Source of the DNA: Photorhabdus heterorhabditis
Lineage (GTDB): Bacteria; Pseudomonadota; Gammaproteobacteria; Enterobacterales; Enterobacteriaceae
NCBI RefSeq assembly: GCF_018448905.1
Contig: NZ_RCWA01000002.1
Span: 186,001-250,000, forward strand
Length of the DNA stretch: 64,000 nucleotides
Reading direction: 5' to 3'
Part shown: positions 22,359-54,405 of the stretch, one piece after another
Position numbering within the stretch: the first letter of the stretch is position 1
How the letters are laid out: every line of letters begins with the position of its first letter
The notes under the pieces: generated by a model
Told to the model about the DNA's origin: nothing
What the model saw: only the letters and a program-made list of their open reading frames with translations
The model's database searches: none
Program-made: the position numbers and the translations under genes

Positions 22359-22416
22359 TATACCCAATAGATTTCAAGATGGATCGCGACGGCAAGGGAG
22401 CGAATCCCTGGGAGCC
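22359..22416 (+). repeat. Truncated ERIC, left half (copy 5)
   Basis: 58 bp matching the left half of ERIC from TATACCC to GGGAGC, where it is replaced directly by the start of another complete ERIC. The matching right half is absent. Confidence 0.85.
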
Positions 22417-22532
22417 TATACCCAATAGATTTCAAGTTGCAGTGCGGCGGCAAGAGAACACATCCCCAGGAGCATAGATAACTCTGTGACTGGGGTAAGT
22501 GAACAGAGGCAACTTGAAAGATAACAGGTATA
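22417..22532 (+). repeat. ERIC repeat (copy 6)
   Basis: A complete ERIC in plus orientation abutting the truncated copy. It is 116 bp because about 11 bases are missing near the GTGAACAGAGGCAACTT region (the CCAACAAAG segment). Ends TATACCC and AGGTATA are present. Confidence 0.9.
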
Positions 22533-35491: not shown

Positions 35492-36694
35492 ATGAAGAGA
35501 AATCTGGCTATGACGATGAAATGTGTTACTGCTGTGCTGACAGTAATATTAGTAACAAATACTCACGCTTATGCGTCGGATGAACCGGTTGTTCCTTCGG
35601 TGGATGCTAAAGCTTATGTGCTGATGGATTATGACAGCGGTAAAATCCTGGCTTCTCATCATCCTGATGAACGGCTTGATCCAGCGAGTCTGACAAAAAT
35701 TATGACCAGTTATGTGGTTGGTCAGGCGATAAAAGCAGGAAAAATCACGCTAGAAGACGTGGTTATTGTGGGAAAGGATGCTTGGGCAACGGGTAATCCG
35801 GTATTGAAAGGTTCTTCTCTGATGTTTCTCAAGCCTGGTGATCGGGTAAAAGTGATTGACCTGAATCGTGGCATTGTTATTCAGTCGGGTAATGACGCCA
35901 GTATTGCTTTAGCTGATTATGTGGCAGGTAGTCAGGATGTGTTTGTCAGTCTGATGAATAATTATGCAAAAGCACTTGGATTGACTAATACCCATTTTCA
36001 AACCGTTCATGGATTGGATGCTGAAGGGCAATTCAGTACTGCTCGTGATATGGCGGTATTAAGCCAGGCAATGATCCGTGATGTTCCTGACGAGTATGTC
36101 CTTCATAAAGAGAAAGCGTTCACTTTTAATAACATCCAACAGCCTAATCGTAATCGATTGCTATGGAATAAAAATATGAATGTGGATGGTGTGAAAACAG
36201 GATATACCCGTGGTGCGGGTCATAATCTGGTTGCTTCAGCGACGGAGGGACCAATGAGGCTGATTTCTGTTGTACTGGGGGCACCAAGTGATCGGGTTCG
36301 TTTTGCAGAGAGCGAAAAGTTACTTTCATGGGGATTCCGTTTTTATGAAACAGTGACACCAATTAAAGTCAGTGAGCCATTTGTTTCAGAAAAGGTCTGG
36401 TATGGTGATCGTTCAGATGTTGCTCTTGGGGTGGAAAAAGATGCGGCAATCACTATTCCCCGCGGTCAACTGAAAAACTTGAAGGCCAGTTACACGTTGA
36501 ATCAGACGCTATTAGAAGCACCTTTGGCTAAAAATCAGGTTGTGGGTGTGATTAATTTTCAATTAGGGGATAAAGTTATTGAACAGCGCCCATTGGTTGT
36601 TAAAGAAACGGTTGAAGAAGGCGGTTTTTTCAGTCGTATCTGGGATTTTATCGTCATGAAAGTTGGCAGCTGGTTTAATGCAATTTTTGGTTGA
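35492..36694 (+). CDS. dacC: D-alanyl-D-alanine carboxypeptidase (PBP6a)
   Basis: Removes the terminal D-Ala from peptidoglycan pentapeptides in the periplasm. The 400-residue precursor has a signal peptide (about 1-28, cleavage near HAYA-SD), the active-site SLTK (Ser66, Lys69), SGN at 132-134 and KTG at 235-237, then the PBP5-like C-terminal beta domain and a terminal amphipathic helix ([18 protein letters not shown]) for inner-membrane attachment. Its length, IEQRPL and [12 protein letters not shown] fit DacC rather than DacD, as does the neighbouring gstB. An ERIC begins 8 bases after the stop. Confidence 0.94.
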
Positions 36695-36701
36695 TTTAAT
36701 G

Positions 36702-36827
36702 TATACCCAATAGATTTCAATTTGCAGCGCGGTGGCAAGAGAACGCATCCCCAGGAGCATAGATAACTCTGTGACTGGGGTAAGTGAACACAGCCAACAA
36801 GCAGCAACTTGAAGGATGAAGGGTATA
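36702..36827 (+). repeat. ERIC repeat (copy 8)
   Basis: A 126-bp ERIC in plus orientation starting 8 bases after the dacC stop, with perfect TATACCC/GGGTATA ends and one base missing near CCAACAAGC. Confidence 0.95.
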
Positions 36828-37011
36828 AAGAGTGATGAGTGGGAGAAAGTAGATATTTTTTTGAACATTAAAAATAGTAGTAAACGTTATTGATATCTGT
36901 CAAAGAAATGAGTTTAATTTAATATTTTATAGGTAATGTTTAATTAGGAATTTATTTTTGATAAATTAGAATTCTATAGTTGCAAATGGAATTGATTTAA
37001 TTATTACAATA

Positions 37012-37138
37012 TATACCCTATGGATTTCAAGATGCATCGCGGCGGCAAGGGAGCGAATCCCCGGGAGCATAGATAACTCTGTGACCGGGGTGAGTGAGTG
37101 CAGCCAACAAAGAAGCAACTTGAAAGATGACGGGTATA
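37012..37138 (+). repeat. ERIC repeat (copy 9)
   Basis: A 127-bp ERIC in plus orientation with perfect ends. Internally it is almost the same as the copy at 38626-38752 (both GATGCATCGCGGCGG, GACCGGGGTGAGTGAGTG and GATGACGGGTATA), so the two are closely related. Confidence 0.95.
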
Positions 37139-37235
37139 TTGTTGTTAAGTTATTAAATGTGTAATAAATGAATATGTTTGGATTGATTTTTGTTTTTTTA
37201 TTTATGATATTGAATTCGAAAAAATTCTGTTGAAA

Positions 37236-37267
37236 CAGGCAGAACCCTGATATTGCAGCTCTGCCTG
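37236..37267 (-). terminator. Hairpin downstream of the 112-residue gene
   Basis: An 8-base stem CAGGCAGA/TCTGCCTG with a 16-base loop, 140 bases beyond the stop, followed on the minus strand by a T-rich stretch. It resembles the GGGCAGAAC hairpin beyond the paralogous gene (38893-38921). Confidence 0.45.
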
Positions 37268-37406
37268 GAAAGAGTGATGTCTGATAGAGGTTGTTTTTTA
37301 GCTTTGAAAAAACGTCAGCCTCATTCTGCCAAGGAAATACTACGCCAAATTTACATTGTGGCAATACTGTATTCGGTGTAGATATTTAGCAGTTTATAGA
37401 TTTATC

Positions 37407-37745
37407 TTAAGAAGCTAACAGTGTTGCGTTGTAGATATAATTGTATCCACCAGGAGAAACAACTGATGAAGAAGTGATATTTACACGTTTGTTATTACCA
37501 CAAGCGTTCAGAAGAAGATGATACAGCGCTGCGCCTCTGTAGTCCTGAGCATTCCACCATAAGAGGTAGTTAAATCTGCCGTTAGGGAGTTGCATAGTAA
37601 CAGTAATCTGCAATTGATTTTGATCAGGTGCAGCTTGAATTGAACTTACTGTACCGACTGCGAAATAGTAATTAGGAGCCTGAGTAGTCTCAGTTTTATT
37701 TTCTGTTGCCACTTCACTGTTTGAAGAAGGATGTGCATGGTTCAT
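37407..37745 (-). CDS. Small protein of unknown function (paralog A)
   Basis: A 112-residue protein I do not recognise. The first 25 residues are polar and probably disordered (MNHAHPSSNSEVATENKTE), with no signal peptide. The rest alternates like a small beta barrel: YYFAVGTVSSI, LQITVTMQLPNG, LLWWNAQDYRGAALYHLLLNAC, KRVNITSSSV, YIYNATL. The start is supported by AGGA eight bases upstream. It aligns with the protein at 39100-39417 (the -W-N-x-x-D-x-RG-x-A-x-Y block is the best-conserved part), so this is a genuine family. It is flanked by ERICs in an AT-rich accessory segment. Confidence 0.7.
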   Translation of the reverse strand: MNHAHPSSNSEVATENKTETTQAPNYYFAVGTVSSIQAAPDQNQLQITVTMQLPNGRFNYLLWWNAQDYRGAALYHLLLNACGNNKRVNITSSSVVSPGGYNYIYNATLLAS

Positions 37746-38225
37746 TGTATTAATCCTATAATTTAATGTAGTTGAAAAAATAAATTTTTATTACTTAAAG
37801 ATGCGAAGCAATAAGTTACCCGCCGAAGAAATATAAGATAATTGGTAATTGTAATCTATATTAAAAGTTTATCTGTGTTATATAATTATTGATGCTGTTA
37901 AAATGTTGACGGTGATATTTTTCCTCTAAATAGTTAGATGTATGATAATAAAATGCATAGCGATTATTAAAAATAATATTGATATTTTTTGCTGATTATC
38001 TGAATGGGGGGTTAATGATTTACCTCCATGGGTGTTATTATTTCAAGGTATTATTGTTAATAAATTGGAGATTTGAATATCGTATAGGAGTTGGAGTGCA
38101 CTCGTGGTACGTGAGAAATTATTTTCTTTTTTTTTCTTCATTTCTATTTCTTAGAGGATATTTTTTTCAAATATTATGAATTTAGGTAATTATATAATTA
38201 TAAATTTGGGGATTAATAGTTGTGG

Positions 38226-38339
38226 TAAATAAGGTTTCATAATTCTGCTACACGTAGCTTTCTTCAACCAATTGTTATACATAGAGTTATATGTTATGTA
38301 GCGTGTGTAAGGTGTAGCACTATTTTGGAAAGCTATTTA
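38226..38339 (+). mobile_element. Putative 114-bp MITE, empty copy
   Basis: A 114-bp sequence beginning TAAATAAGGTTTC and ending GAAAGCTATTTA, whose ends are imperfect inverted repeats over about 28 bases (outer TAAATA and inner CTGCTACAC/GTGTAGCAC pairs match). It has TA at both outer edges. A second copy at 38570-38808 is the same apart from three or so substitutions and an inserted ERIC. No coding capacity. I do not know a name for it. Confidence 0.7.
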
Positions 38340-38569
38340 CCTTGCATGGTTAATAATATCAAATAAAATAACTTGATTTGTTAATAAGTTACTAAAGTTA
38401 TTCTTTCATTATGAAATATTAACGATGTATAAAAGAGGAATATTATTCCATCTTGTTTTTAGAAGTTGAATTGATAGTATGTGTTATTTCATAGACAATT
38501 CTGAATAAATAATTACTTTTTGGTAAAAATTAATTCGCAGGTGATATATTAGGGTTGATATTGACGAAA

Positions 38570-38808
38570 TAAATAAGGTTTCATAATTCTGCTACACGTG
38601 GCTTTCTTCAACCAATTGTTATACATATACCCAATAGATTTCAAGATGCATCGCGGCGGCAAGGGAGCGAATCCCCGGGAGCATAGATAACTATGTGACC
38701 GGGGTGAGTGAGTGCAGCCAACAAAGAAGCAACTTGAAAGATGACGGGTATAGAGTTATATTTTATGTAGCGTGTGTAAGGTGTAGCACTATTTTAGAAA
38801 GCTATTTA
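38570..38808 (+). mobile_element. Putative 114-bp MITE, copy interrupted by an ERIC
   Basis: The same element as at 38226-38339, in the same orientation 344 bp away, but with 125 extra bases at its internal TA (corresponding to 38282-38283 in the empty copy). The extra DNA is exactly the ERIC at 38626-38752, less one TA. Outer ends and inverted repeats are intact. Confidence 0.75.
38626..38752 (+). repeat. ERIC repeat (copy 10), inserted in the 114-bp element
   Basis: A perfect-ended 127-bp ERIC. Comparison with the empty copy shows flanks GTTATACA on the left and GAGTTATAT on the right, and TA at both junctions where the empty site has a single TA. Confidence 0.95.
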
Positions 38809-38892
38809 TATAGTTAGGTGAATTAATTTATAAATTTATTTTTGTTATTTTATAGGTTCCTATTTTTAAATAACATTGAGTAGAATATTGAC

Positions 38893-38921
38893 GGGCAGAA
38901 CGTTGAGATTATGTTCTGCCC
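38893..38921 (-). terminator. Hairpin downstream of small paralog B
   Basis: A perfect 9-base stem GGGCAGAAC/GTTCTGCCC with an 11-base loop, about 180 bases past the stop of the gene at 39100. No clear T tract. It corresponds to the hairpin at 37236-37267. Confidence 0.45.
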
Positions 38922-39099
38922 TAAATCTGGTAGGATACATCTTTATGAAAATCAGCGTTATTCTACCAGAAAAATGTTGCGCCTAATTCCTGTTTACAAC
39001 TGTACTGTATTTTACGACCAATCAAATCGCTTAAAATCAGATTAAGTTTTTATTAGGAATCTATTAGTTAGCACAGACATTTAACAACGGATGATTATT

Positions 39100-39417
39100 T
39101 TACATAGATAATTCTACGTGATTGATATAATCACGATCGAGAGGTCCTATTTTTCCTACGGTTCCTATTTTTATATCTTTCTTAGCACAAAGAGCTTCCA
39201 TCAGAACCTTATAAATAGCCATGCCTCTATTGTCCATAAGATTCCATTTTAAAAGCATCTCTTCAGAGCCGCCATCAAGTAGTAATATGGTCACCATGAC
39301 TTGCATGACATTATCAGGCATAACTTTCATGCTAATGACTTTACAGCTACGTAAGATCATATCATTCATCATATCTTTATCTTTTACTAAAGAAGGGTGC
39401 ATATCGTTAATCATCAT
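39100..39417 (-). CDS. Small protein of unknown function (paralog B)
   Basis: A 105-residue protein of the same unrecognised family as 37407-37745: MQVMVTILLLDGG, MLLKWNLMDNRGMAIYKVLMEALC, DIKIGTVGKIG and YINHVEL line up with the other copy. It is unusually methionine-rich in its first 50 residues. I chose the ATG at 39417, six bases after GGAG; a start four codons earlier would overlap the ribosome binding site. No signal peptide or membrane helix. Function unknown. Confidence 0.7.
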   Translation of the reverse strand: MMINDMHPSLVKDKDMMNDMILRSCKVISMKVMPDNVMQVMVTILLLDGGSEEMLLKWNLMDNRGMAIYKVLMEALCAKKDIKIGTVGKIGPLDRDYINHVELSM

Positions 39418-40239
39418 AATAAACTCCATAATATATTGTAATTTTTTGATAAATAAACTTATATTCTCTCAAGAAAAGAACGGAAAACCGCTAGATTGAG
39501 AAATATAAGTTGGTTGGTACTTCTACTATAAAAAAGCAATCTACATAAGAAATATTTTTGCACTAAAAATATAGGACAGTTAACGTTTTTAATTGGCATA
39601 TAACATTTTGTCTGACACATATAACTATAGGTGCCATTTGGAGGTTGTCAATTAAATTTAAGAAAATAATTTAATTGATTGATAAATATAATTATATTGC
39701 CAAAGGAAGAAAATAAATGGTAAATATGAAATAGTTGTAATTTCTTACATTTTGTATAATTGGATGGAATTAAGATATTGTTGATAATATATTTATATTG
39801 GGATGATTAGTGTGATAATTAAAATATAATTGCATTTTTAATCATGGAAAATAATATTGTTTTTTATTTTCTTGAAATTTCTATAAATATCAATATGAAA
39901 GAGTTGTTATGTGTCTTTTCTTACAAGAAATACTTTTCTATGATAATTATTCTTATATTCTTATATTCTTTAAATAACTTATTAGAATATAAATAGAATT
40001 GTTAGTGGTTATTTCAATATAAGCATCAACTATGTCGGAGAAATATGCATATTAATTAATGCTGTTAATAATAGAAATGTTCATTTAACACATCAGGAAT
40101 ATATATCTAAGAATAATATTAATCAGGAAGTGTAAATACTTTGTGGGATCATGCGGGGGTACACTGTTGGAAGTTGTGAAGCAGTTCCGTGTAAGTATGC
40201 GGTTGCTGCCCGCTGAAGAGAGCAGCAACCAGGAATTGA
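39418..40239. other. AT-rich spacer with no gene
   Basis: About 820 very AT-rich bases between small paralog B and sdaC. The only structure seen is the sdaC hairpin at 40201-40230. No ERIC, no coding frame. Confidence 0.55.
40201..40230 (-). terminator. Hairpin downstream of sdaC
   Basis: A perfect 9-base stem GGTTGCTGC/GCAGCAACC with a 12-base loop just past the sdaC stop. It lacks a T tract on the minus strand. Confidence 0.5.
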
Positions 40240-54151: not shown

Positions 54152-54278
54152 TATACCTGTTATCTTTCAAGTTGCCTCTTTGTTGGCTGCACTCACTCAC
54201 CCCAGTCACATAGTTATCTATGCTCCTGGGGATTCGCTCCCTTGCCGTCGCGATACATCTTGAAATCTATTGGGTATA
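54152..54278 (-). repeat. ERIC repeat (copy 12)
   Basis: A 127-bp ERIC in minus orientation. Its right-hand TA is shared with the next ERIC. Confidence 0.95.
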
Positions 54279-54405
54279 TACCTGTTATCTTTCAAGTTGC
54301 CTCTTTGTTGGCTGCACTCACTCACCCCAGTCACAGAGTTCGCTATGCACCCGGGGATTCGCTCCCTTGCCGTCTCGCACTGCATCTTGAAATCTATTGG
54401 GTATA
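54277..54405 (-). repeat. ERIC repeat (copy 13)
   Basis: A 129-bp ERIC in minus orientation, directly after copy 12 and sharing its terminal TA (54277-54278). It differs from copy 12 at several internal positions (GAGTTCGC for the usual AGTTATC, and GTCTCGCAC). Confidence 0.95.

Follow-up and report, generated by a model that had tools for sequence, protein, structure and literature searches.

How do an empty and a filled copy of the same site come to lie a few hundred bases apart on one contig? The window analysed here, a 64,000-nucleotide stretch of a Photorhabdus heterorhabditis contig, contains two 114-bp units in direct orientation, the second of which is split at its central TA by a complete ERIC (Table 1). 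We regard it as very probable that this is a nested insertion of two non-autonomous elements of IS630/Tc1/mariner type with different end types, MITEs having entered at TAs before the ERIC arrived.

Filled and empty copies in the window

In a pairwise alignment, 38226-38339 and 38570-38808 differ by one insertion of 125 bases and at 3 of the 114 positions they share. The empty copy reads GTTATACA-TA-GAGTT and the filled one GTTATACA-TA-(123-bp body)-TA-GAGTT, so that the extra bases amount to one ERIC of 127 bp, counted with both its TAs, minus one TA. A chance origin of this pattern is excluded, because 111/114 bases agree and the break falls exactly at the ERIC ends. The insertion and its duplicated TA are thus seen directly, and the ERIC is a discrete 123-bp element. 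The initial annotation had said as much: its identification of the extra bases, its reading of the full ERIC as a discrete insertion with TA duplication (empty and filled sequences agree base for base) and its statement that both states occur in one genome, in fact on one contig, all hold. Its distance of 344 bp is correct as a start-to-start spacing, the gap between the copies being 230 bp.

Table 1. Positions of the repeats discussed, numbered from the first base of the window
Feature	Position	Strand	Details
Uninterrupted 114-bp MITE (AATAA-type IS630 ends)	38226..38339	+	outer TAs 38226-38227 and 38338-38339; central TA 38282-38283
Second 114-bp MITE, split at central TA	38570..38808	+	halves 38570-38627 and 38751-38808
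ERIC (MITEPlu5-like) with both TAs	38626..38752	+	body 38628-38750 (123 bp); duplicated TA 38626-38627 and 38751-38752
Neighbouring ERIC	37012..37138	+	3/127 bases differ from 38626-38752
More diverged ERIC	36702..36827	+	86% identical

At this site alone a 3-bp duplication of ATA would fit equally well, owing to the A that happens to flank it. As a general rule we rejected it, since just 30 of 58 ERIC sites (the set described below) have an A ahead of the left TA. Against nine other distinct sequences close to the 114-bp type, the filled copy has private changes 68T and 102A, and the empty copy 31A. The ERIC occupies the exact centre of its host (TA 57-58 of 114) in a unit that has 17 TAs. 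Scanning a collection of genome contigs, which may not include the source genome, for the same pattern, an ERIC at the centre of the MITE, gave five matches, all in other genera by title, which we took as chance.

The repeat cluster is flanked by minus-strand genes for two small proteins (37407-37745 and 39100-39429), diverged paralogues with 29% identity; neither protein matched Pfam at E 0.001. Rfam models gave only V_AS5 and Ysr49 matches in 36000-40000, far below gathering score, on three ERICs.

The 114-bp unit and the order of events

Judged by sequence comparison, the 114-bp sequence is a dispersed MITE whose inverted ends are bounded by TA; its two copies in the window were inserted separately and are not a duplicated segment. 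The unit starts TAAATAAGG and ends CTATTTA; its other copies in the same genome have unrelated flanks, and all 13 genus genomes compared, the source genome included, contain matches to it. At the orthologous locus of the relative G003, which is about 91% identical in syntenic DNA, neither position carries a MITE and each has a single TA. A second relative, G002, also has a single TA in place of the first MITE, and the stretch of the second is absent from that genome. The MITE thus duplicates its TA on insertion, as seen at both G003 sites and at the first G002 site, and the unoccupied single TAs of G003 make it most likely that both MITEs were gained after divergence from that genome. We therefore dropped the earlier term 'paralogous' for the two copies.

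Which elements could have moved this MITE? Its left end agrees at 26 of 28 bases with the right end of an AATAA-type IS found in genome G012, and its right end at 21 of 28 with the left end of that IS, which is 1154 bp long and encodes a 347-aa protein with a DDE_3 domain (E 2e-27); the 114-bp MITE and a transposase-coding IS thus have inverted ends in common. The AATAA-type IS630 elements ISPlu10 and ISPlu16, in the part of PMC6267812 that describes them, have TAAATAA... ends and a TA duplication, both of which are present in the 114-bp MITE; we liken the unit to them by this description, not by ISfinder sequences, and its partner carries DDE_3. Five contigs of the source assembly end inside an apparent multi-copy IS with the MITE's left end, and the transposase of that IS was not seen in the assembly. 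Nesting of another kind occurs in two further genomes, where a 105-bp AATAA-type MITE lies near the centre (TA 51 or 53) of a 114-type MITE (L150 in G004 C3, L151 in G010 C2); these two loci are nearly identical and probably represent one event.

The order of events is then very probably as follows. Two AATAA-type MITEs of 114 bp entered two nearby TAs first, each duplicating its TA, as the relative's empty sites with one TA show. Later, a CCC-type, MITEPlu5-like ERIC inserted at the TA in the middle of one MITE, which was duplicated in turn, as the uninterrupted copy beside the filled one shows. From the ends that both kinds of element share with IS630 elements, we infer that each was moved in trans by the DDE transposase of an IS630 element with matching ends.

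Could a local segmental duplication have produced both 114-bp copies, an ERIC entering one of them afterwards? The copies are direct, lie 344 bp start to start and differ at 3/114 bases, and the small genes on either side of the cluster are themselves diverged paralogues, all of which would suit such an origin. However, the likeness between the copies ends exactly at their TA-bounded ends, the unit also occurs at unrelated places, and in G003 both places hold a lone TA without a copy; we consider a segmental duplication very unlikely. We give still less credence to the idea that both copies once held an ERIC and that the first lost it by precise excision. An excision leaving exactly one TA would be compatible with the sequence, but excision of IS630/mariner-type elements usually leaves a footprint, and the seven clean orthologous empty sites reported below have no extra bases either. 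The nine other distinct near-114-type sequences are also all uninterrupted, by construction, as the search was ungapped. An assembly chimaera at a 127-bp repeat is scarcely credible even in a draft of 226 contigs, five of which end within a common IS end, because a false join would not leave the ERIC, inside a 265-kb contig, between two halves of a single MITE that complement each other and have one TA in excess. Insertion of the MITEs followed by that of the ERIC accounts for the locus, and we retain it below.

The ERIC family and its empty sites in relatives

The window ERIC has the form expected of the family, an imperfect palindrome of about 127 bp (TATACCC...GGGTATA), and it is dispersed, with 33 full-length copies among 41 matches on the 265-kb contig C2. 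Genome-wide, there were 522 candidates at first look, 40 of which were scored. The ERIC (also IRU or RU-1) of Photorhabdus luminescens appears as MITEPlu5 in the section of PMC6267812 on mobile elements, with hundreds of copies, a strong hairpin and CCC-type IS630-like ends; the window element is alike in its 123 bp plus TA, in its ends and in abundance. There is no difference in kind, this copy simply sitting inside another MITE.

The left and right ends of the ERIC each agree at 22/28 positions with the same-side ends of a 1101-bp element of the source genome, against 18/28 for the crossed ends, while comparisons across end types gave 6 and 5 of 28. Over bases 3-28 the agreement is 20/26, a value that shuffled ends reached in 0/100000 trials. 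ERIC ends are thus like those of CCC-type IS630 elements (ISPlu3, ISPlu8 and ISPlu19), as measured against the source-genome element and not against ISfinder entries. A DDE_3 match lies within the 1101-bp element and is interrupted by a TGA. DDE_3 matches were found at four places in the source draft assembly, three with an internal TGA (one of them also partial) and one a short fragment, and no intact CCC-type IS630 source was seen among these four; a draft may merge the copies of a multi-copy IS or omit them. The two CCC-type IS630 copies that were read at the DNA level (L002 on C81 and L160 on C25 of the source genome, G000) have a TGA at one and the same point of their transposase frames; this stop would seem to have been inherited, or to have travelled with the element, rather than to be private decay.

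A different balance between the two families is found in G012, which had only 2 ERICs in 400 kb (C1:1000001-1200000 and 3000001-3200000), where an equal length of G007 yielded 42 after filtering, and which has the most AATAA-type MITE matches among the genomes compared (at least 40). The ERIC and AATAA-type MITE families seem to amplify independently.

Orthologous sites were surveyed for the 33 full ERICs of contig C2. Placement of both flanks within 3 kb succeeded for 18 ERICs in G003 and for 18 in G002, and 15 of the 33 had no flank pair placed in either relative, in part because the relatives' stretches begin only at about 130 kb of C2 in the case of G003 and at about 150 kb in that of G002. 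For seven ERICs, one relative or both show an empty site of exactly one dinucleotide (six in G003, two in G002, one in both). The dinucleotide is TA in six cases and TG in one, with no extra bases; in one of the seven (C2 168941) the left flank is just 67% identical. The TA target duplication of the ERIC is thus found at the window locus and at six of the seven clean empty sites. Two ERICs with clean empty sites in G003 miss an exact fit in G002 by a single base, which is extra in one case and missing in the other. The other 26 gave no clean orthologue answer: apart from the 15 unplaced, they have flank changes or are the tandem pair and the nested ERIC itself. No clean shared filled site was found in G003 or G002 among the placed ERICs.

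The tandem pair (54152-54405) consists of two head-to-tail ERICs with one common TA; G003 and G002 lack it and have a single TA there. More complex arrangements also occur. At L152 (G000 C7:29600-30550), an ERIC sits at TA 59-60 of another ERIC and is followed by a third that shares the end TA, making a three-element nest. At 22359-22532 of the window, the first 60 bp of an ERIC are followed by a 116-bp ERIC sharing its TA, and the other half of the host was not seen there.

Target preference, probable recent activity and significance

Do ERICs choose among TAs? ERIC sites favour T at position -2 and A at position +2 relative to the TA. Of 58 sites, 37 have this T and 38 this A, compared with 30.3% and 29.2% of 3930 control TA sites in the flanks; both are present at 23/58 ERIC sites against 8.4% of control TAs (p 8e-11). 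These sites come from contiguous stretches of G000 (C2), G003 and G002, which hold 69 full copies; one without outer TAs was dropped, and removal of 7 tandem copies and 3 duplicates reduced the remaining 68 to 58. The preference was first noticed in 143 sites, a set biased by loci fetched with flank-containing queries, a few of them from G007. That genome provides a nearly but not wholly independent test, as at least one locus in the tested stretches (L065) was in the discovery set. Its 51 matches, less 8 partial ones and 1 without TA, leave 42 sites, of which 28 have T at -2, 20 have A at +2 (weaker by itself, p 0.009) and 15 have both, against 8.1% of controls (p 5e-7). Neither of the two ERIC sites in G012 has both positions, a number too small to be informative. 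The nested site in the window has only half of the preferred target, the A at +2.

In the AATAA-type MITE the same preference is at most a trace: both positions occur at 9/41 sites against 10.2% (p 0.03), and single positions are not significant. This set derives from 148 matches of two queries, from which 37 partial, 68 duplicate and 2 TA-less matches were dropped, its loci having come from several different queries. We make no claim of a preference for a central TA or a palindrome centre, despite the positions of the window ERIC, L150/L151 and L152, because the internal TAs of the window ERIC are nearly all central (59, 63 and 67, with one more at 10) and two events in MITEs are too few. In a limited search of open-licence papers, covering main text or passages, we found no ERIC target preference beyond TA, and the section of PMC6267812 on mobile elements does not mention one.

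How recent is the insertion? The initial annotation took the near-identity of the neighbouring ERIC (37012-37138) as a sign of a recent event. The near-identity is real, but this neighbour is not the closest copy, so its likeness is no argument for recency. Among the loci in hand, two ERICs of the source genome (on C43 and C45) and two of G003 (on C28 and C33) are identical to the window ERIC at 127/127 bases. Alignments of these loci between the genomes extend over at most 131 bases, about one ERIC length, so the sites are not orthologous. Such copies are a better argument for recency than the neighbour, and the window ERIC appears to belong to a subfamily recently active in both genomes. We suggest tentatively, and with slightly less than even confidence, that the ERIC has its own target rule, a palindromic T-N-[TA]-N-A to which the AATAA-type MITE does not clearly conform, and that a recently active subfamily has placed identical copies at non-orthologous sites of genomes that are about 91% identical.

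De Gregorio (2005) reportedly obtained a result on TA duplication. In passages of the later literature, TA duplication by these repeats is stated with reference to De Gregorio 2006 and Wilson and Sharp 2006 (PMC2759123) and is tabulated for ERIC (PMC2229807), and 47 copies of the ERIC-like MITEPlu5 are given as indels between Photorhabdus strains (PMC6267812). As of 2007, transposase-driven movement of such elements had no experimental support, according to the relevant passage of PMC2229807. The same source describes RUP of pneumococcus, paired with IS630-Spn1, as a TA-targeted MITE whose movement by an IS630 transposase was inferred and which is found inside other mobile elements; RUP belongs to another family and another host, and we liken it to the window elements by description, not by sequence. 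The initial annotation was incomplete here, since PMC2759123 and PMC6267812 had already published the TA duplication of ERIC and its movement in Photorhabdus; the presence of both states in one contig stands. With TA duplication, mobility and likeness to CCC-type IS630 all published, the locus is mostly ordinary, a good new instance of a known mode of ERIC insertion and not a new phenomenon.

What the locus offers is a before-and-after picture of an ERIC insertion within one genome, from which the element's boundaries can be read with no need of other strains, and the survey adds a target motif that can be tested, together with a candidate partner for the ERIC. If the tentative suggestion above is true, identity over 127 bases across genomes that are only about 91% identical suggests either a recent source that spread between species or a source copy that changes very slowly.
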